Positions 663 to 17,739 of a DNA stretch of 34,544 bases are shown in pieces. The first letter of the stretch is position 1. Each line of letters begins with the position of its first letter. A program made the position numbers and the translations under genes. This stretch comes from Candidatus Altarchaeales archaeon WOR_SM1_SCG. Its GTDB lineage: Archaea; Altiarchaeota; Altiarchaeia; IMC4; WOR-SM1-SCG. The stretch is from contig MCBE01000033.1 in assembly GCA_001723845.1 (NCBI GenBank), forward strand, positions 1 through 34,544. Reading direction: 5' to 3'. Under the pieces are notes generated by a model. It was not told the origin of the DNA, ran no database searches, and was given only the letters and a program-made list of their open reading frames with translations.

Positions 663-2816
663 TCACACATACTTCATCAACTCCTCCTTAACTCTCTTAA
701 TTCTCGGCGTCTCGGTCCTTCCCGCTAAAATATCAAGAATCAGCGACGGCGTTATTTTTTCTGATTTTTCAAGTTCATTGACAATTTTATATTTGGGCCA
801 TGTTCTTTTTGCATCAATCCCGGAAGCGTATGCAATATCAATAAGTGCCGGTGTTGCGGTCTGCCCGAGAATTGAAGATTTATTTTTTTTCCATTCAATT
901 TCTTTTTTTGATATTTCGGGTTTCGTCTTCTCTTTCTTTGCGGGCTTTTTCTTTTCCTCTTTTTCCTCTGACTTCAGCAATTCATCCTTTACTCTTTTAA
1001 TCTTTTGCGTTTCCTTTTGTTTCTCAAGAACTTTAAGAACAAGCGATGGCGTTAACTTTTCCGATTTGTGTATGGTACTGGAAACATCGCCTTTTTTTGC
1101 CCCTGATTTAATTTCAATTTTTGCCTTTTTTGCAATCTCTGTAAGAATCGGAAGGGTTAATTCATTCAATAATTTTTTATTTATTTTTAATTTTTCTTTA
1201 ATTTCTTTTTCCGGTTTTACGCGTCCTTTATCTATATTCAACAACACATCCCTGGCTTTTTTAATTTTTGCGGTTTCTTCCTGTGCATCCAGGACTTTAA
1301 GGACAAGTGAAGGCGTTACTTTTTTTGAACCGCTTATAATCTCAACCGCCTCACCTTTCAGCATTCCCGTTGCTAATTTAATTTTTGCCTCCTCTGCAAT
1401 CTCGGAAAGAACCCAGACCTCCAATTCATTCAATAATTCTTTATCAACTTTTGATTTTTCTTTGATTTCTTTTTTCGGTTTTTCTGCCTTCCCCGGTTTT
1501 TTTACCTCTTTTTCCCGGGGTTTTTTTGTTTCCTCATGCTTCTTCTCTTTCTCTTTTTTCGGGATAAATTCTTCTTCATATTCGTGCATCTTTATTTCTA
1601 TTTCGGTTTTTTTTGCTCCCGTTGATTCTTCTGCCTTAAGACCCCCGCCGTAAGCATCAAAAAGCTTCGTAGAAACCTTTTCATGTTCTGTTGCAAGTTC
1701 TTCAAGTTCCTTCAGCCGTTTAAGTACCGAGGGCATGTAGGTTACAAGCAGGGTAATTGATGCTAAATTTTTCTTTGTGATCGCAATACCGAAATGCGTC
1801 TCATGCGACTCGGTCCGCTCCTTTAACAACTGGAAAACAGCATTTGTATTGATTCTTCCCTTTCTTTTAAGGTAGTAGGAAGGAACCCGAAGCATTGCCA
1901 GGCTTTTCATGCAGTCGTCAGGTTTAACATCTTTCAGCGTCATTCGCTTGAATGAACGCTCAATTAAACTGTCAACATTCACCTTCTGGTAGCCCCCAAA
2001 AGGAATAAGATACCTTGAAAAAGGTCTTATCCTGTCGCTGACACGAGAAAGCGTTGCAAACCCCGGCTTTGATTTAAGTCCCGATTTAAAGGTAATCGCG
2101 GTTATAATATCCTGGATATCAATAACCGGCGGGTTTAGTGCATAATCCGAGGGGCGTATTTTTTCAAGGATTGTCCCGAGCAGAATGTCAATCAAGCTCT
2201 GCGCCACATACATATTGTACTGTTTAAACATTGACTCCATGCTTTCAAGGTGTGAAATTCTTTCATTGTCAACAAGAATGTAAGCATCAACATAATCAAA
2301 TAATTCATTTAAACACCGCCATGCGTTCCATGCAGTTATGTCTCCTTCTTTTACCGCGGGAAGAACACCTATTGCAATAACGGGAATATCAAATAATTCT
2401 TTAATTGCCCTTGCAACAAAAGGAGATGTCCCGCTTCCTGTTCCCCCGCCGAGACCCACGGCAAGAAAAACAACGGGAGCAGAACGCCTGTCTTTTCCCA
2501 TACCTTCAATTCTTTCCTTTAAGGTCTTTTTAAGATTTGAATAATGGGATTTAATTATTTCACTCCCCTTAACAGGGTCCTTTCCAAATCCGCCGACAAC
2601 AAGTTCATCAAACCCCTCGGTTACGCCGTCAACAAAGCCGTGCGTCTTTGAAACACCAATCCAGTATTTTTTATTTAAATTCTCGAGATTCATCAAGTCC
2701 TGCGTGGCTGAATTTATCACTATCGGGGTTGCAATCTTAAACATGTTCTTATGAGAAAACATTGCATCAACAATTCCGCAGCCGCACTGACCTGCCCCTA
2801 TAAACGCATGAGCCAT
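663..2816 (-). CDS. Tubulin/FtsZ superfamily GTPase (CetZ/FtsZ-like) with charged linker and three C-terminal ~75-aa SAP-like repeats
   Basis: GAGQCGCGIVDAMF N-terminus, GGGTGSG tubulin signature loop, NPPVIDIQDI acidic segment; C-terminal repeats ending TPSLVLKVLDAQEETAKIKKARD / TPSLVLKVLEKQKETQKIKRVKD / TPSLILDILAGRTETPRIKRVKE. Confidence 0.85.
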   Translation of the reverse strand: MAHAFIGAGQCGCGIVDAMFSHKNMFKIATPIVINSATQDLMNLENLNKKYWIGVSKTHGFVDGVTEGFDELVVGGFGKDPVKGSEIIKSHYSNLKKTLKERIEGMGKDRRSAPVVFLAVGLGGGTGSGTSPFVARAIKELFDIPVIAIGVLPAVKEGDITAWNAWRCLNELFDYVDAYILVDNERISHLESMESMFKQYNMYVAQSLIDILLGTILEKIRPSDYALNPPVIDIQDIITAITFKSGLKSKPGFATLSRVSDRIRPFSRYLIPFGGYQKVNVDSLIERSFKRMTLKDVKPDDCMKSLAMLRVPSYYLKRKGRINTNAVFQLLKERTESHETHFGIAITKKNLASITLLVTYMPSVLKRLKELEELATEHEKVSTKLFDAYGGGLKAEESTGAKKTEIEIKMHEYEEEFIPKKEKEKKHEETKKPREKEVKKPGKAEKPKKEIKEKSKVDKELLNELEVWVLSEIAEEAKIKLATGMLKGEAVEIISGSKKVTPSLVLKVLDAQEETAKIKKARDVLLNIDKGRVKPEKEIKEKLKINKKLLNELTLPILTEIAKKAKIEIKSGAKKGDVSSTIHKSEKLTPSLVLKVLEKQKETQKIKRVKDELLKSEEKEEKKKPAKKEKTKPEISKKEIEWKKNKSSILGQTATPALIDIAYASGIDAKRTWPKYKIVNELEKSEKITPSLILDILAGRTETPRIKRVKEELMKYV

Positions 2817-6414: not shown

Positions 6415-9400
6415 TTAATCAAGTTTTATACCAAATTGTTCAAGTTTAAAACGGATAATTTCATCTAAATTTTGTATATCCTTTTGTTCTAACCCCAGCA
6501 ACTTTAATCTATTCTTTTTGTAGATTTTTTCCTTTATTTTCTTACTTTTTCTGTATGATTCATCATTCATCATTCCCCAATACTCAATATATAAATCATG
6601 ATCCGCCAGATACCAGTCGCAGTACCTGAGTTCTTTTATCGGAAGTTTCTTTTCAACTTCATGTTTTATGTTATGGTGATACAGCCAGTTATCAATAAGC
6701 AGTTCAGGCATTGACCTTACTAAGTGTGTATCATCAGTTTTGATTTCACGAGGTATATCCCTTTGCATATCCTGCATCTTCTTATGTTTAATGCAGTCAT
6801 AACAGTATTCATATTTCCGGGGTATCTGGATTCCGCAGAACTTGCAGGTGTTTATGACTTTTTCGTCCGACTCTGTTGTTTTTTGAGTTTTTATTTCAGG
6901 TTTTGTTTTTATTCCCTGCAGGGGTTTTGTTTCCGGGAGGTCTGTGCCTTCATGTCCCGTCTCCTTTATTCTTACTATCGCTTTAGATTTCCCTGATTTC
7001 AACACAAAAATTACAACCACAATAATCAAAGCAATAGCAATGATAAATAGCGGATTCTGCCACCAGATACTATCTTCTTTTTCTTTTTGCACTCCTGCGG
7101 GACTTGCCTCTTCTTCCTTTGATGCTCCAACATCTGCTTTTTCTTCAGCATGGCATTTCTTATCCTCGCCGCAGTATTTATCAGGAGAACAGTATTCTCC
7201 GCCGCAGAACTGCCAGATTGTTACTGTTTTATCCAAACTTTCATGATGCTTGTTTTCATCATCTCCTTCATACCACCAGTAAACTTCACCGGAAAACCTG
7301 AAATCCCCTGGGTTGTTGGAACTGAACTCTACACTTATATGTTTTTCACTCCCTGATGGAATGTTAAACCCTAATAAACCTCTCGTTCCCAAATCCTCAA
7401 CATTCACAGTATTATGGATTTCAACATCATCCGGTATTTTAATCTCCATTTTCCCGATTATTTTAGGGTTGTTTAGTTTGTTTGTAACCTGAAATGTAAT
7501 TTTCCCCGGGCTTCTTGACACCGCAGATAACACCTGAATATCTATCGCCGGTTGCAATGGTACTGAAATACAGGTCTTGGATTTACTTAAACAATATTTG
7601 CTTTTACATTCCTCATTACAGTCGCAGTGTTCGCCAACCCCTAATTCCAGGCAATTATCACATCTCTCTGTAATCGCGCACGGGCAGTAACCTGTGCTTG
7701 CAGGTCCTTTAGACTCAGGGCATTTGTCTATGCAGTCATTTCCGCCATCACCATCTGAGTCAAGGTCTCTCCTGTTTTTGTTCTGGGAGTTTGAATCATC
7801 GCAGTCAACATCCGATGTAACACCGTCACAATCCCTGTCGTTCGGGTCTGTTGTGCAGTATCCGCCTTCGCACCTGCATGAGCATTCTTCTGTTTGATAC
7901 ACACATTCTCCATTCAGGCATGTTCCCTCATGATATCTTAATCTTCCTGAGCAGTAACTGTCGCAAACCATACCGTAGCAAAGGTCGCAGTCCTGCGGGC
8001 ATGAAATAGCAGTTTCGCCTTCAGCACATATTTCATCACCGCAAACTATCGGTGCAGGACAATCTTGAAGGCAATTATTATAATCCTCTCCACTATCGCA
8101 AATATCATTTCCACAACTCGCAGAGCAGTCATTGTCATTTGCGGAATTACAGCCGGAAGAACAGCAGCCGTCACCACCCACGCATGAGTTTATTGTTGCA
8201 TGCGAGCATGATGCAGAACAGGTTCCTGCATTACTACAAGAATCAACTGTGCAGGAGTTCCCATCATTGCATTCTGAATTTGAATTACAATTCGGTATTA
8301 CACAACTTCCTGCACAGCAAATCTTCCCGGAAGAGCATCCGCAGTCGCCGGGACATGAAGAGTAAGTTTCTCCTGATTCGCAAATATTGTTTCCGCAGGC
8401 AACAGAGCAGTCATTATCGTTTGCGGAAGTGCAGCCGGACGGACAGCATCCATCACCTCCTGAGCATGAAGTTATTGCAGCATGCGAGCATGATGCTGAG
8501 CATGTTCCAGCATTACTACAGGAATCAACTGTGCAGGGGTTCCCGTCACTGCATCCTGAATTTGAATTACAATTCGGGGTTACACAGCTCCCTGCACAGC
8601 AAATCTTTCCGGAAGTACAATCGCAGTCGCTTGAACATGAACTGCATGTTTCTCCAGATTCGCAGACACCGTTTCCGCAACTTACAGAGCAATCGTTATC
8701 AGTTACAGAATTACAGCCAGAAGGGCAACAGCCGTCACCGCTCAAACAGGATGTTATTGTTGTATGCGCGCATGATGCAGAACAGGTTCCTGCATTACTA
8801 CAAGAATCAAGTGTGCAGGTGTTTCCGTCACTGCAATTTGAATTTGATGAGCACGCAGGAGTTAGACAGTTTCCAGCACAGCAAAGTTTTTCGGAAGAGC
8901 ATCCGCAGTCGCCGGGACATGAAGAGCAGGTTTCTCCACTTTCGCAAACGCCGTTCCCACATTTTTTAACACAGTAATTTGAAGAACAATACTCATCGTT
9001 CGCACAATCGCTATTAGAACAGCAACTGTTCGTTCCCGAATACCACGCCCCAACACAGCATTTTCCAGTAGTGGCATAGCATGTTCCACCACAGAAAGTT
9101 CCATCTAAACAATTATAAAGGTAGATATCCCAATTACCATTTCTATTATCCATCCATACAATTTTATCCCCGTAGCTTGCTATAATGTTAAACTGATTAG
9201 AAATGACTGTCGTTATTCTTTTTTCGGTGTTTGTTGATAAATCATACCTGTAGATACCCAGAGAATTATCTCTATCATCCATCCATATAATTTTATCCCC
9301 GTAGATTGCAGGACTCCCTTGCATAGAACCGGCTGGCGTTATTCTTTTTTCGGTGTTTGTTGGTAAATCATATAGGTAGACATCCAACTCCCACATACCA

Positions 9401-9954
9401 TTTCTATGATCATCCCATACGATTTTATCCCCGTAGATTGATAGATAATCTTTTTGGGAAATGACTGTCGTTATTCTTTTTTCAGTGTTTGTTGATAAAT
9501 CATACATGTAGATATCCGAATTGCCGTTTCTATAATCAGACCATACGATTTTATCCCCGTAGATTGCTGGATACTTTTGGTGGGAACTGTCTGTTGTTAT
9601 TTGTTTTTCGGTGTTTGTTTTTAAATCATACATATAAATATCATGATTGCCATTTCTATAATCCTGCCATACAATTTTATCCCCGTAGATTGCAGGATAA
9701 CGTTGACTAGAACTGTCCGTCGTTATTCTTTTTTCGGTGTTTGTTTTTAAATCATACATGTAGATATCATCATTACCATTTCTATTATCATACCATACAA
9801 TTTTATCCCCGTAGATTGCAGGAGAAAATTGATTAGAACTGTCTGTCGTTATTTGTATTTCATTTGCTTGCATTGTTTGTGCAATTAAAATTATGATTAA
9901 TGTTGTTGCGATTAAAATTCTGCGCAAACGTTTATAATTGTGTTTTCTACTCAT
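6415..9954 (-). CDS. Transmembrane surface protein: signal peptide, ~6 TolB-like propeller repeats, ~3 Cys-rich repeats, stalk domain, TM helix, cytoplasmic zinc ribbon and PD-(D/E)XK-like nuclease domain
   Basis: Repeats IYGDKIVWxDxRNGNxDIYMYDL; CGNGVCESGETCSSCPGDCGC; TM PLFIIAIALIIVVVIFVLK; CKFCGIQIPRKYEYCYDC; C-terminus RSMPELLIDNWLYHHNIKHEVEKKLPIKELRYCDWYLADHDLYIEYWG...YRKSKKIKEKIYKKNRLKLLGL. Confidence 0.8.
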   Translation of the reverse strand: MSRKHNYKRLRRILIATTLIIILIAQTMQANEIQITTDSSNQFSPAIYGDKIVWYDNRNGNDDIYMYDLKTNTEKRITTDSSSQRYPAIYGDKIVWQDYRNGNHDIYMYDLKTNTEKQITTDSSHQKYPAIYGDKIVWSDYRNGNSDIYMYDLSTNTEKRITTVISQKDYLSIYGDKIVWDDHRNGMWELDVYLYDLPTNTEKRITPAGSMQGSPAIYGDKIIWMDDRDNSLGIYRYDLSTNTEKRITTVISNQFNIIASYGDKIVWMDNRNGNWDIYLYNCLDGTFCGGTCYATTGKCCVGAWYSGTNSCCSNSDCANDEYCSSNYCVKKCGNGVCESGETCSSCPGDCGCSSEKLCCAGNCLTPACSSNSNCSDGNTCTLDSCSNAGTCSASCAHTTITSCLSGDGCCPSGCNSVTDNDCSVSCGNGVCESGETCSSCSSDCDCTSGKICCAGSCVTPNCNSNSGCSDGNPCTVDSCSNAGTCSASCSHAAITSCSGGDGCCPSGCTSANDNDCSVACGNNICESGETYSSCPGDCGCSSGKICCAGSCVIPNCNSNSECNDGNSCTVDSCSNAGTCSASCSHATINSCVGGDGCCSSGCNSANDNDCSASCGNDICDSGEDYNNCLQDCPAPIVCGDEICAEGETAISCPQDCDLCYGMVCDSYCSGRLRYHEGTCLNGECVYQTEECSCRCEGGYCTTDPNDRDCDGVTSDVDCDDSNSQNKNRRDLDSDGDGGNDCIDKCPESKGPASTGYCPCAITERCDNCLELGVGEHCDCNEECKSKYCLSKSKTCISVPLQPAIDIQVLSAVSRSPGKITFQVTNKLNNPKIIGKMEIKIPDDVEIHNTVNVEDLGTRGLLGFNIPSGSEKHISVEFSSNNPGDFRFSGEVYWWYEGDDENKHHESLDKTVTIWQFCGGEYCSPDKYCGEDKKCHAEEKADVGASKEEEASPAGVQKEKEDSIWWQNPLFIIAIALIIVVVIFVLKSGKSKAIVRIKETGHEGTDLPETKPLQGIKTKPEIKTQKTTESDEKVINTCKFCGIQIPRKYEYCYDCIKHKKMQDMQRDIPREIKTDDTHLVRSMPELLIDNWLYHHNIKHEVEKKLPIKELRYCDWYLADHDLYIEYWGMMNDESYRKSKKIKEKIYKKNRLKLLGLEQKDIQNLDEIIRFKLEQFGIKLD
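8045..8958 (-). repeat. Internal ~280-bp tandem coding repeats (Cys-rich modules)
   Basis: Three copies plus a partial of CGN.(V/I)CESGET...CCAGSC..P.C.SNS.CSDGN.CTVDSCSNAGTCSASC.H. Confidence 0.85.
9120..9860 (-). repeat. Internal ~120-bp tandem coding repeats (propeller blades)
   Basis: Recurring 'attttatccccgtagattgcagga' on + strand, encoding PAIYGDKI. Confidence 0.85.
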
Positions 9955-10918
9955 TTTTAAATGTATTTAACTTTGAATCTAAATGCCAGGTTTTATAATT
10001 TTTTATAAATTTTACACACACATCCAATCTCTCATGAATTTTTAGATATTCATCGACTATTCCCAAACCCCTTTTGTAGTCAGATGGTTCCAATATGCCA
10101 GATGCTGGATAACGAGTGCAAGATTCGTGAGGACCGGTAAGCAGAGAAATATTGGTAAGAATTGCAGGTTTAGGATTTCTGATTTTTATACTCCATTTTA
10201 TATTCTCTATTATATTTTCGCAAAAATTTCCTATAAACTTCATATACTGTTCCTGCTGAGGTTCTTTTATCTTCTGATTGACTTTATTATAAATTCTAAT
10301 ATAACAATCATCAAAATAATCTTTGCTTTTCTTTCCATAAATTTTAAAAAACTGTTTATCAATGTTTTCTTTTATTCCTTCCTCCTCAGCTATTTTCTTT
10401 ATACTTCTCCAATCCCTAAGGTATTTATCTCCATCTTTCAGAATCTCTCCATTAGTATAATCGTTATTTTCATCAAAAGCGTCAAAAGGAAATTGTAGAT
10501 GGAATAGTATTTTTTCTTTTTTCATTTGCAGTATGTCTGATTTATCTAAATTCATAACTTTCTCTTCTAGTTCGTACTTATCTTTTGCAGTTTTCAATAT
10601 TTGAGAAATATCGAGTACATGAAATTTGTAATGCAATGTAAGTTGGTTATGCAAAGTGTGTCCAAGAAAAAGCAAGTGGATACTTTTTATGATATTCGTA
10701 TTAACGGGTGTGTGAGAAAACTTCCATAAATCTTCTGGTTCAAACCCCATAATCACAAAATACGCCTTTATCGCTTTTTCTGCAGATTGTTGTAAAAGAT
10801 AAACGGCTTGAGGATACTCTTCTTTGTGATATAAAATTTTACTTGCACCCAAGTCCTTTTCTGCAATTTCCAGAAGTTTTTCAGCAAACTCTAAATTTCC
10901 TTTATTATTTTCTACCAT
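9947..10918 (-). CDS. HEPN-domain-like protein, coupled upstream of the transmembrane nuclease-like gene
   Basis: FAEKLLEIAEKDLGASKILYHKEEYPQAVYLLQQSAEKAIKAYFVIMG is a HEPN N-terminus; ORF overlaps the next start by 8 nt. Confidence 0.75.
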   Translation of the reverse strand: MVENNKGNLEFAEKLLEIAEKDLGASKILYHKEEYPQAVYLLQQSAEKAIKAYFVIMGFEPEDLWKFSHTPVNTNIIKSIHLLFLGHTLHNQLTLHYKFHVLDISQILKTAKDKYELEEKVMNLDKSDILQMKKEKILFHLQFPFDAFDENNDYTNGEILKDGDKYLRDWRSIKKIAEEEGIKENIDKQFFKIYGKKSKDYFDDCYIRIYNKVNQKIKEPQQEQYMKFIGNFCENIIENIKWSIKIRNPKPAILTNISLLTGPHESCTRYPASGILEPSDYKRGLGIVDEYLKIHERLDVCVKFIKNYKTWHLDSKLNTFKNE

Positions 10919-10974
10919 TTTTAGATTTATTTTGTATTGTATTATCTGTTTGTGGTTTTGTTTAAATTTTTATT

Positions 10975-11043
10975 TTATTTTTTTGCTTTATTGCTTTTGC
11001 TTTGGTTTTCGTTTCCTTTTTTTGTTTTAATTTCGGTTTTCAT
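10975..11043 (-). CDS. Tiny Lys-rich ORF (22 aa) with upstream GAGGTGA
   Basis: gaggtgaaaaaaATG; translation MKTEIKTKKGNENQSKSNKAKK*. Confidence 0.3.
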   Translation of the reverse strand: MKTEIKTKKGNENQSKSNKAKK

Positions 11044-11169
11044 TTTTTTCACCTCTTTTTTTGTTTTAAATTTATCTTTTGTTATGCTACGTGATGCTAT
11101 GATTTGTATGCTTTTTTACTCTAATCAAAGCAGACATTTCTTCGTTATTTCACCTACTTTTCTACTAAC

Positions 11170-11271
11170 CTATTTAGATTTAGATTTAGATTTTTCGTTT
11201 TTCATTTTTACCTCAAGCCGGGGATCAGGTGTTTTTCTATCGGGTTTGGTTTCTTTAGTTTCTTCTGTCAT
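11170..11271 (-). CDS. Small basic ORF (33 aa), 4 nt downstream of the 3-TM gene
   Basis: Translation MTEETKETKPDRKTPDPRLEVKMKNEKSKSKSK*. Confidence 0.35.
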   Translation of the reverse strand: MTEETKETKPDRKTPDPRLEVKMKNEKSKSKSK

Positions 11272-11275
11272 TTTA

Positions 11276-11749
11276 TCAATTTATGAGTTTGCTTATTACA
11301 AATAATATTAAACCGATACAAAGTGTAAATATTGAAACATTCACACGATCTGCTCTTTTACCTATTCTTTTCTGATTTTCTTTGAATGATTCTATAAAAT
11401 TAACAATAACCTGCTCTTTAACTTCATCAGACTCATCAGTTCTATAGTGTTCGTATAACGCATCTGGATCAGGGCCTAATCTATAATCTTCAACTTTATA
11501 TGCAAAAAATGCTGAGAATAAAGAAATAAAGAAAAGGATAAGAGCCATTATAAAAAAACAATATCTGTGACACGCCATTATTGGTTTATTTGTAAATATA
11601 ATACCCAATAATACAGCCACAAAACCAAGTATTATACTTGCTTTTGTATTTAAGTTTTCTAATGCTTGAAATTGATTCTTTAATTGATCTTTTGTTTCGT
11701 GATAAATTAAATCCAAGGTATCGCTTGGTATCTTATTCTTGTTTTCCAT
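11276..11749 (-). CDS. 3-TM membrane protein resembling SLATT/Pycsar-type TM effectors
   Basis: LENLNTKASIILGFVAVLLGIIF + YCFFIMALILFFISLFSAFFAY + VNVSIFTLCIGLILFVISKLI topology. Confidence 0.5.
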   Translation of the reverse strand: MENKNKIPSDTLDLIYHETKDQLKNQFQALENLNTKASIILGFVAVLLGIIFTNKPIMACHRYCFFIMALILFFISLFSAFFAYKVEDYRLGPDPDALYEHYRTDESDEVKEQVIVNFIESFKENQKRIGKRADRVNVSIFTLCIGLILFVISKLIN

Positions 11750-11791
11750 TTTTTAAATTTTTAGATTTATTTTGTATTAATATTATTATTT

Positions 11792-12310
11792 TCAATACCC
11801 GAGTTCGTTCAAAACAGATATAACATTAATCGCAGGCATCCCCGTACTCTTGCAAATTTTTAATATATCATCTTCTGTTTTTATATCCCCTGCAAGTTTA
11901 CCCATGACCGAAAGTGTGTGGGAAACGGCATCCTCGGGAAGCATGAAGTAAATAACTCCTTCAATTTTTGATTTCCCTAAAAAACCTTTCTTCACAAGAG
12001 AATTTAGTGTAATTGACGCATGGGTTTCATACTGCAAACTCTTGTGTGTTTTGCCGAATTTTTCAATAATATCATCTCTTGTAACTGGTTTTTTCTGTTC
12101 CAGAACAAATTCCATAACCATTTTTTCCACTTTCGCGATTTTTGGCGGCTGCTTTAGTTTTGAAGTTTCTCTTTTAAATTCCTTCAGCCGCAGTAAAAAC
12201 AGGGATTTTGTTTGACGGTCTATTAAAATACCGCTGATTTCTTTTGCAAGGTCTTTTCCTTCCTTATCCATACTTTTTAGTATGGATGCTAACATATTAA
12301 CTTCATCCAT
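11792..12310 (-). CDS. Winged-HTH-like protein
   Basis: VEKMVMEFVLEQKKPVTRDDIIEKFGK...LNSLVKKGFLGKSKIEGVIYF; SD-like AAGGAGGT upstream; overlaps JAMM gene by 8 nt. Confidence 0.55.
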   Translation of the reverse strand: MDEVNMLASILKSMDKEGKDLAKEISGILIDRQTKSLFLLRLKEFKRETSKLKQPPKIAKVEKMVMEFVLEQKKPVTRDDIIEKFGKTHKSLQYETHASITLNSLVKKGFLGKSKIEGVIYFMLPEDAVSHTLSVMGKLAGDIKTEDDILKICKSTGMPAINVISVLNELGY

Positions 12311-12950
12311 TTTTGTTTACCTCCTTAGGTTTTGATTCTTTTGTGTAAAATGCAACCTCGTGGTCGTGGGTTATGCTGCTCCATTTTATTGTGTTTTCCT
12401 TTATCTTTTCGTAATCTTTTTTTGCACGAACCGAACCGCCGCTTATCGCATGAATGCCGTAAAACACTTCTGTTCCCGATGAGTATTGTTTTATCTTTTG
12501 TGCAGTTGTTCTGAAAAATAACTTGTCTTGCGTGCTTGGCAGGGGTTCTCCTCCGGGGTGAGTGTGCAGTATCACAAGTAATTCCGGCAATTCCCCGGTT
12601 TCTGCTCTGATGTGTGCAATCATATTTTCTACATTCACATTCGCTTCCTTTGAGTCCGAACCATAGAGAACATCTTCACTTGAAAACTGGTGCAGCGTAT
12701 TTACCCTGTGCGAACATCCTGAAAGAGCGTATAAAATCTCAATATCCTCATGCTCTGGTCTGAATATTGATTGCGCCCTTATCTCCATATTTTTTAAAAT
12801 AGACGGAGGAAGGAGAATTCCTTCGTCTGATTTCGTCTGATTTTCTAATTTTTCAGCGTCTTCAGATTTCCTCTTCTCTTGTTTTTTTCCCGGCTTCTCA
12901 AACTCTACTATTAAATTGCCGTCCTCAACAAGTATTTCCCATTCAGTCAT
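12303..12950 (-). CDS. JAB/MPN (JAMM) metalloprotease-like protein
   Basis: HTHPGGEPLPSTQD matches H-x-H-x7-S-x2-D. Confidence 0.85.
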   Translation of the reverse strand: MTEWEILVEDGNLIVEFEKPGKKQEKRKSEDAEKLENQTKSDEGILLPPSILKNMEIRAQSIFRPEHEDIEILYALSGCSHRVNTLHQFSSEDVLYGSDSKEANVNVENMIAHIRAETGELPELLVILHTHPGGEPLPSTQDKLFFRTTAQKIKQYSSGTEVFYGIHAISGGSVRAKKDYEKIKENTIKWSSITHDHEVAFYTKESKPKEVNKNG

Positions 12951-12963
12951 TGCTTATTAAATA

Positions 12964-13725
12964 TTAGTCTTTTTGTCTAAATATTACTTGTGACTTCTTT
13001 GCAAACCCTATAATCACCGCGATACCCAATAAAACTGCAACAACCAACAGTATCTGATTTGCGGTTGGTTCGGGGAGTGTGTTCTTTACTTCTGTGCCGC
13101 AGGAGTCCTCACCGGGTTTCTGAATGCAAACTTCACCCAAGTTCCTGTTTATGTGGACTGTGTGGTCAAACCCGATCTGGTGCAATTTATCATCACCTTT
13201 CCATTTCCAGTAGAGTGTTGCAGACGCCCGGTAGTCTCCCGCTTCTTTTGCAGTAAATGGTATTTCAATGTAAGTTACACCCCCTGAGGGTATATTCAAT
13301 TTTATAGTATTGTAACTTGCTTTGCCCTCCAATGCTCCAATAGATCCAGAAACTTCAACATCATCGGGAACATCCAGAATTATCTGGGCTTCAATACCTG
13401 GGTTTCCCATAATGTTTGTCACCTGCACCGCTAATCTCCCCGGGTTTTTATCATCGGCACTTATCGCTTTTGAACTGAAATGCGGAGCTACTGGCTCAAC
13501 ATTTTCAGTTTCTTCTTCGTTTGTTGGCGGATCATCACCAACATATTCTATTTCGGCTGCATCGTCTGTTGCAGTTTCAACCACTTCATCTGTAATGTTC
13601 ACATCAGTGGTTTGGTTGCTGATGTTCTCAGCAGAAACACCTGCCGAAATAACCAGTAGTCCCATCAGCAGAACTACCAGCCCCATGACCAATTTCAGGT
13701 CTTTTGTTGTTTTTTTCATTTTCAT
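12964..13725 (-). CDS. Secreted, membrane-anchored protein with CARDB/stalk-like domain
   Basis: N-terminal signal sequence, C-terminal TM (ILLVVAVLLGIAVIIGFAKK), domain paralogous to the stalk of the 1179-aa protein. Confidence 0.7.
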   Translation of the reverse strand: MKMKKTTKDLKLVMGLVVLLMGLLVISAGVSAENISNQTTDVNITDEVVETATDDAAEIEYVGDDPPTNEEETENVEPVAPHFSSKAISADDKNPGRLAVQVTNIMGNPGIEAQIILDVPDDVEVSGSIGALEGKASYNTIKLNIPSGGVTYIEIPFTAKEAGDYRASATLYWKWKGDDKLHQIGFDHTVHINRNLGEVCIQKPGEDSCGTEVKNTLPEPTANQILLVVAVLLGIAVIIGFAKKSQVIFRQKD

Positions 13726-13976
13726 TTAGTTTATTATATATTTAATATTGTTATAACAATAATTATTATTGTTATGTTATATATTAGGAAGTCATCCTTT
13801 AAAAAGGAAAAGCGAAAATATCTTTTTCGTTCGGTATGCAGAAATCTGATAACTGAAATATATATAATTTAGTTTATATAAAATTCTTTGATTTTTGCGG
13901 TAAAATTTCTGGAAAAATAAGAAAAATTGGCGAAAATGTCAAAATTTTAATTTAAATTTTAAAATTAGTGAAGAAA

Positions 13977-16932: not shown

Positions 16933-17739
16933 CTAAAAAGCTATTTTTCTCTTTTTTATATTCTTTTTTATTTTGTATAAAAATTCATCATCATTGAGAT
17001 TCATTTTGCTAATATAATCTACAGCACCTGCTTTAATACTATCCTTACGAGCATCAGGATCGTCTCTGATTGAAAACATCACTATTGGCGTATCTTTTGT
17101 TTCAGGACTTTGTTTTAACAATCTACAAATACGAATACCCTCATTACTTGGATCATGACCGGGCATTATTATATCTAATAATATCAAATCACAATTTTCT
17201 TCTTTAGCCATTTTTAAAATTTTAGATTCGTCTATAACGTGGCTCATCCTCATACAACGTATAGAATAATCTTCTCCTTGTTTCTCCAACATGCTTCGCG
17301 CTACTTGAAGCCATTTTTCCTCATCATCTATTACTAATACTTTCTTCTTATGTTCCAGTATTTCCTCTGCTCTTTTCAACATATCTTCTTCATTACCTGA
17401 TTTCTCCGGAATAAAATGCCCTTCAGCAGTAAAATAAACATCGCCAACAACATCTCCGGTATATATTTTTATCGGCACCTTCCAGATTTTCTCTCTTTTC
17501 AAAAATTTGATGTCTCCGATGCCGACGGCATCGCCGAGATTTTCCAATGAATACAAAATTGCTTTTTTCTCAATTGCTTTCATTGTTAATTTTTCAGGGT
17601 AAATTTTAATTAGAGAGTCCCCTATTTCAACCTTCATGGGTGTTCCTTCGGTTATTCCTGATTCTTCCAATAAAGTTGATGGGATACTCAACCCGCCTTT
17701 CTTTCCCAGAAAAACTTCTTTTATGGTAGTTGCAGCCAT
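16933..17739 (-). CDS. AbrB/SpoVT-like DNA-binding domain fused to a response-regulator receiver domain
   Basis: LGKKGGLSIPSTLLEESGITEGTPMKVEIGDSLIKIYP + VLVIDDEEKW...CDLILLDIIMPG...IVMFSIRDD...GAVDYISK. Confidence 0.8.
   Translation of the reverse strand: MAATTIKEVFLGKKGGLSIPSTLLEESGITEGTPMKVEIGDSLIKIYPEKLTMKAIEKKAILYSLENLGDAVGIGDIKFLKREKIWKVPIKIYTGDVVGDVYFTAEGHFIPEKSGNEEDMLKRAEEILEHKKKVLVIDDEEKWLQVARSMLEKQGEDYSIRCMRMSHVIDESKILKMAKEENCDLILLDIIMPGHDPSNEGIRICRLLKQSPETKDTPIVMFSIRDDPDARKDSIKAGAVDYISKMNLNDDEFLYKIKKNIKKRKIAF

Follow-up and report, generated by a model that had tools for sequence, protein, structure and literature searches.

The window analysed here is a 34,544-nucleotide (nt) stretch of Candidatus Altarchaeales archaeon WOR_SM1_SCG, and corresponds to contig 33 (MCBE01000033.1) of a 2.55-Mb assembly that comprises 300 contigs and is 74% complete. 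Its minus strand carries a run of six open reading frames (ORFs) that may constitute an undescribed envelope-sensing defence locus. The strongest new points are that three of the genes, encoding a membrane-anchored stalk protein, a JAMM protease-like protein and a winged helix-turn-helix (wHTH) regulator, recur together at a second locus of the same genome, and that a large receptor-nuclease at the end of the run is built on the stalk's anchor. The six genes are, in order along the minus strand:

12964..13725, minus strand: stalk protein of 253 amino acids (aa), with a hydrophobic N-terminal segment, an acidic linker, an unclassified ectodomain of ~115 aa, a transmembrane (TM) segment at residues 224-242 and a short basic cytoplasmic tail, KKSQVIFRQKD
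12303..12950, minus strand: JAMM/MPN+ protease-like protein, 215 aa, with a Prok-JAB match of 29.9 bits (cut-off 25) and a complete set of catalytic residues
11792..12310, minus strand: winged-helix regulator, 172 aa, with a central BlaI/Penicillinase_R-like domain (PF03965, 26.3 bits; cut-off 22.6)
11276..11749, minus strand: three-TM PycTM-like protein, 157 aa (PADLOC PycTM, E=7.7e-8), with TM segments at 35-53, 64-82 and 138-156
9947..10918, minus strand: HEPN-domain protein, 323 aa (PF05168, 38.6 bits; cut-off 22), matched over residues 12-60 only, the rest being mostly unassigned
6415..9954, minus strand: receptor-nuclease, 1179 aa, consisting of a signal/TM segment (10-28), a beta-propeller of Msarc repeats (~34-280), Cys-rich repeats (~280-800), a stalk-like ectodomain (~803-915), a TM segment (969-987), a zinc ribbon and a PD-(D/E)XK nuclease domain (1056-1178)

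A preliminary description, made from the letters of the window, had reported six closely packed genes on one strand with two 8-nt overlaps, and this layout is borne out. The JAMM and wHTH genes overlap by 8 nt, as do the HEPN and receptor-nuclease genes; 13 nt separate the stalk and JAMM genes, 42 nt lie between the wHTH and three-TM genes, and the sole loose joint is a 357-nt gap between the three-TM and HEPN genes. This gap and the gene remnant in it, a 22-nt repeat and a second locus, all treated below, are additions to the preliminary description. The JAMM, HEPN, PycTM-like and nuclease assignments made at the same time also hold, on the strength of Pfam and PADLOC matches and, for the nuclease, of AlphaFold and Foldseek as well.

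Within the assembly, the JAMM and wHTH genes occur exactly twice each, in the window and on contig 22. The order of genes at the second locus is stalk (603 aa), JAMM, an AlbA/HATPase regulator, two related surface proteins of 661 and 665 aa, and wHTH, with the stalk, JAMM and wHTH genes all in the same orientation. Between the two copies, the JAMM proteins are 75% identical, with a ratio of nonsynonymous to synonymous substitution rates (dN/dS) of ~0.14, and the wHTH proteins 87% identical (dN/dS ~0.12), which is the mark of purifying selection; the C-terminal ~170 aa of the stalks are 56% identical, and the stalk C-terminal domain evolves faster than either partner (dN 0.37). The canonical E-x(n)-HTH-x7-SxxD residues of the JAMM family (PMC300881), here E71, H129, H131, S139 and D142, are kept in both copies. 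The wHTH gene on contig 22 has a start context, AACAAAAAATGGATGA, similar to that of the window copy, whose start is overlapped; this suggests that the trio was originally contiguous and was later split by an insertion at the second locus.

Searches further afield placed the trio in this one genome. Pattern scans, which detect close relatives only, found no relatives of the JAMM protein in GTDB species genome contigs and none of the JAMM or wHTH proteins in viral contigs. No clear JAMM relative was found in 394 archaeal genomes, where weak, partial profile matches in five other genomes (E 6e-4 to 6e-3) were set aside; three of these were N-terminal, in proteins of 447-458 aa, one of which proved unrelated to JAMM. 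The wHTH protein has one clear diverged relative, in genome G141 (E=8e-11), and as this sole significant match has no adjoining JAMM gene, a JAMM-wHTH pairing across archaea was rejected. The trio is therefore known from one genome, twice.

The second feature of note is a unit shared by the surface proteins. A profile was built from the last ~170 residues of the stalk and searched against the genome and 29 relatives; it matched three sites in the genome, namely the window stalk, the contig 22 stalk and residues ~803-1000 of the 1179-aa protein, and had no match in the 29 relatives. The unit consists of an unclassified ectodomain, a TM segment and a cytoplasmic tail that is basic and follows the pattern I-x-R-x-K-[DE]. 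Outside it, the ectodomains of the three bearers are wholly different: the window stalk has a short one, the contig 22 stalk one made of LamG and Cys-rich repeats, and the receptor-nuclease one made of a beta-propeller and Cys-rich repeats, the propeller being of the Methanosarcina type (TIGR04275, E=4e-106).

The opposite end of the 1179-aa protein is matched by the PADLOC profiles PDC-S69 (E=5.5e-34) and HEAT_CxxC_PD-DEXK. The structure check proposed for this domain gave an AlphaFold model with a predicted local distance difference test score (pLDDT) of 86.8, which Foldseek placed in the Vsr/TnsA/I-Bth0305I group; the catalytic domain of I-Bth0305I (3r3p) was the best match in the PDB (E 4e-3, prob 1.00), alongside TnsA and Vsr, and these modest E-values are consistent with each other and with the sequence motifs. 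Viral structures gave 97 matches at E<=1e-3, including DUF559 proteins and homing and restriction endonucleases. In an alignment of 16 related sequences (fragment numbering), the domain keeps every fully invariant position, including E55, E95 and K112, as well as the nearly invariant D84. Relatives in 15 genomes of named archaea and bacteria are soluble proteins of ~140-300 aa, including widespread archaeal zinc-ribbon nucleases of ~195 aa and a 194-aa protein of Candidatus Altiarchaeales archaeon IMC4. No receptor fusion was seen in those 15 genomes; one of the frames, L047, is truncated by the contig end and has a hydrophobic N-terminal stretch. A UvrD-type helicase elsewhere in the assembly (contig 224, L020 13-2400, minus strand) carries an inserted domain weakly like the receptor's nuclease domain (E=2.9e-4). 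Because a signal-like N-terminus is followed by one later TM segment, hydropathy and positive-inside reasoning indicate that the nuclease should be cytoplasmic, and the 1179-aa protein is thus predicted to be a single-pass surface receptor with intact PD-(D/E)XK residues in its tail.

The two remaining proteins are less easily classified. The PADLOC PycTM match covers the first half of the profile, corresponding to the first two TM segments of the three-TM protein, and relatives of the latter in genomes G027 and G048 stand away from JAMM and wHTH genes. PycTM of Pycsar has been described as disrupting membrane integrity (PMC11224242). Membership in Pycsar was rejected: no pyrimidine cyclase (PycC) is encoded in the locus, and no Guanylate_cyc (PF00211) match was obtained in the 74%-complete assembly, in which positive controls were detected. 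As no cyclase was found, the PycTM-like protein, if an effector, is probably under some other control. The HEPN protein lacks the RX4-6H catalytic motif throughout its 323 aa, on which ground it was rejected as a canonical RNase, and because its gene overlaps that of the receptor-nuclease, a role as the nuclease's partner or inhibitor is as plausible as one as a toxin. Matching by sequence to solved structures yielded nothing useful for the JAMM, wHTH, HEPN or nuclease proteins.

The PycTM-like, HEPN and nuclease genes have no close copies in the rest of the assembly, where weak HEPN and nuclease matches occur on other contigs. The joints of these extra genes bear REARRANGEMENT scars, in the form of a direct repeat and the remnant of a surface-protein gene:

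11757..11778, minus strand: 22-nt direct repeat AATACAAAATAAATCTAAAAAT, copy 1, 5' of the PycTM-like gene
10917..10938, minus strand: 22-nt direct repeat, copy 2, extending into the HEPN start codon
10945..11075, minus strand: truncated surface-protein gene, consisting of the 5' end and ~22 codons followed by a stop; two intact genes on contig 22 have homologous starts

With up to 2 mismatches allowed, the repeat has just these two copies in the whole 2.55-Mb assembly (expectation for the window, 0.01), and full-length relatives of the remnant are found at the second locus only. The fraction of G+C is 0.28 in the PycTM-like gene and 0.30 in the HEPN gene, as against 0.36-0.43 in the trio. Together, repeat, remnant and low G+C point to a probable gain or relocation of the effector genes, or of the PycTM segment that the repeats enclose, and the 5' region of the old surface gene may now drive the HEPN and receptor-nuclease genes. 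Upstream of the trio lies a further feature:

13746..13775, minus strand: two overlapping perfect palindromes (23 nt with a 1-nt centre, and 16 nt), 20-50 nt upstream of the stalk start, a candidate operator

Palindromes of this kind were matched in 7 of 2000 Markov shuffles (0.35%) of the 150-nt upstream region.

The surroundings of the two loci offer several observations of their own. The run in the window is flanked by genes for TGT, ThiI, Rhomboid and a C39 peptidase. Elsewhere in the window are a 717-aa protein (663-2816, minus strand) that exceeds an ordinary FtsZ in size and combines a tubulin/FtsZ-type GTPase domain (PF00091, E=3e-20) with a long additional region, and a response-regulator receiver domain fused to a MazE/AbrB-like N-terminus (16933-17739, minus strand). 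On contig 22, the AlbA/HATPase regulator between the JAMM and wHTH genes (L003 11997-13403) has matches to the pAgo and Aga profiles of PADLOC (E=2e-21), which probably reflect a shared Schlafen-AlbA/HATPase region. Some 15 kb from the second trio is a STAND-like group made up of a 1134-aa CHAT, NB-ARC and TPR protein and adjoining ATPase and TPR genes (L004 15459-18863 and 13317-14666), and the same contig holds a 909-aa DNA-ligase-like ORF (L004 4330-7059) with an apparent intein, judged by eye, from near GFRCVSGLTPIY to near CLHNCQIHKN.

What might such a locus do? The preliminary description held that all six genes form one system that senses something outside the cell or at the envelope. 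As a conserved six-gene system this is rejected, because only the stalk, JAMM and wHTH genes recur; the neighbourhood comparison found their co-occurrence repeated once, on contig 22. The receptor-nuclease is nonetheless linked to this core by a juxtamembrane-TM-tail unit confined in the genome to the two loci, whereas the PycTM-like and HEPN genes are AT-rich and accompanied by scars. A unified immune system of six genes is possible, but the second locus, like the scars, points to a modular assembly. The exterior-sensing part of the idea fits the predicted architecture.

We tentatively favour, at a confidence that falls short of probable, the view that the trio is an envelope sensor/metalloprotease/repressor module, akin to a split BlaR/BlaI, that gained lethal or DNA-cutting effector genes. 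A surface protein with an exchangeable ectodomain on a fixed juxtamembrane-TM-tail unit would detect an external event, the cytoplasmic JAMM protein would then be engaged, and the BlaI-like regulator would be released or cleaved, altering expression from the operon promoter. The effectors that the window copy would have acquired are the PycTM-like membrane protein, whose gene continues the closely spaced run of the trio, and the HEPN-like protein, translationally coupled, with the receptor and its nuclease tail. On meeting a virus, element or competitor, the effectors would be raised, and the receptor-nuclease would cleave nucleic acid at the membrane, close to the site of entry, or else kill the cell. 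At the window locus, the trio would either control these membrane and nuclease effectors or adjoin them. In favour of this view are the recurrence of the trio in one orientation, the purifying selection on its JAMM and wHTH genes, the variable ectodomains on a juxtamembrane-TM-tail unit that the genome has three times, the BlaI-family match of the wHTH protein, the position of the palindromes at the operon promoter, and the conserved residues that the nuclease keeps.

Several results weigh against this view. The PycTM-like, HEPN and nuclease genes are missing from the contig 22 locus, no palindromes are conserved there, and no known defence genes are among those flanking the run in the window. 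We know of no case in which a JAMM enzyme cleaves a winged-helix repressor. The structure model of the JAMM protein, built from two sequences for lack of relatives, came out at pLDDT 32, so that its fold assignment rests on Pfam and the motif. Moreover, the characterised archaeal JAMM enzymes process SAMP/ubiquitin-like conjugates (PMC4443979, PMC6043591).

A serious if doubtful alternative is that the trio is this lineage's regulatory unit for surface adhesins or envelope maintenance, with no part in defence, and that the PycTM-like, HEPN and nuclease genes are passengers brought by recombination. The unit on contig 22 holds two large surface proteins and the AlbA/HATPase regulator in place of effectors, the genome is rich in Cys-rich repeats of surface proteins, and the extra genes bear scars and an AT-rich composition; yet the receptor-nuclease bears the stalk's rare anchor unit, which is hard to reconcile with a mere passenger. 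The same unit, common to the receptor and the trio's stalk, tells against a rather improbable second alternative, in which the HEPN and receptor-nuclease genes are an independent, toxin-like pair inserted beside the trio, with the captured promoter of an old surface gene driving their expression; their 8-nt overlap, the 357-nt gap upstream with its remnant including the 5' region, and the repeat at the HEPN start would all suit it. Least probable, in our estimation, is that the JAMM protein is a desampylase/deubiquitinase-like enzyme that trims a small modifier off either the stalk or the regulator in a ubiquitin-like regulatory pathway, for which its canonical motif and the activities of its archaeal namesakes speak, but against which stands the fact that the ORFs read and scanned at the two loci include no recognised gene for E1, E2 or a ubiquitin-like protein.

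Most known prokaryotic defence systems detect events inside the cell. If the sensor/protease/repressor reading is true, archaea would have a direct outside-to-inside alarm in the form of a surface receptor with its own cytoplasmic nuclease, alongside a JAMM protease and a repressor, and JAMM enzymes would gain a role beyond the trimming of ubiquitin-like modifiers; even without a defence role, the trio would be a testable, lineage-specific signalling module. The fullest version, an undescribed, envelope-sensing immune locus of archaea under the control of a JAMM protein and a BlaI-like repressor, with a fixed unit carrying exchangeable ectodomains and, in one case, joined directly to a cytoplasmic PD-(D/E)XK nuclease, so that a single-pass receptor would itself serve as the DNA-cutting effector, we regard as unlikely. 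No report of this gene combination was found in the open-access literature, of which coverage was partial, and the window proteins gave single-domain PADLOC matches only, with no whole-system match to a known anti-phage defence.

Comparison with known systems places the locus among several. It resembles BlaR1/BlaI and MecR1/MecI in having a membrane sensor, a cytoplasmic metalloprotease and a BlaI-family winged-helix regulator in one operon, and in BlaR1 a metalloprotease domain that faces the cytoplasm plays a part in the derepression of BlaI (PMC9834060). In those systems, the M56 protease domain lies inside the sensor, whereas here a separate, soluble JAMM protein takes its place and domain scans detected no M56 domain in the stalk; the locus is also archaeal, with a single-pass surface sensor, no link to beta-lactams and a repressor cleavage that is hypothetical. 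The JAMM protein shares its catalytic residue set with HvJAMM1, AfJAMM and archaeal Rpn11, but differs in its own N-terminal region of ~55 aa, in having no ubiquitin-like partners nearby, and in its recurring partners, a surface protein and a wHTH regulator. With Pycsar (PycC plus PycTM) the locus shares a three-TM protein matching the PADLOC PycTM profiles but not, as far as was found, a pyrimidine cyclase, and with HEPN proteins of PF05168 it shares the N-terminal helices, but not the RX4-6H motif or an adjoining MNT partner, and its 323-aa protein has a long unassigned region. Finally, the receptor-nuclease has the zinc ribbon, nuclease domain and conserved residues of PDC-S69, HEAT_CxxC_PD-DEXK and the archaeal ~195-aa nucleases; those relatives are soluble, whereas here the nuclease is predicted to be the tail, inside the cell, of a surface receptor that spans the membrane once.

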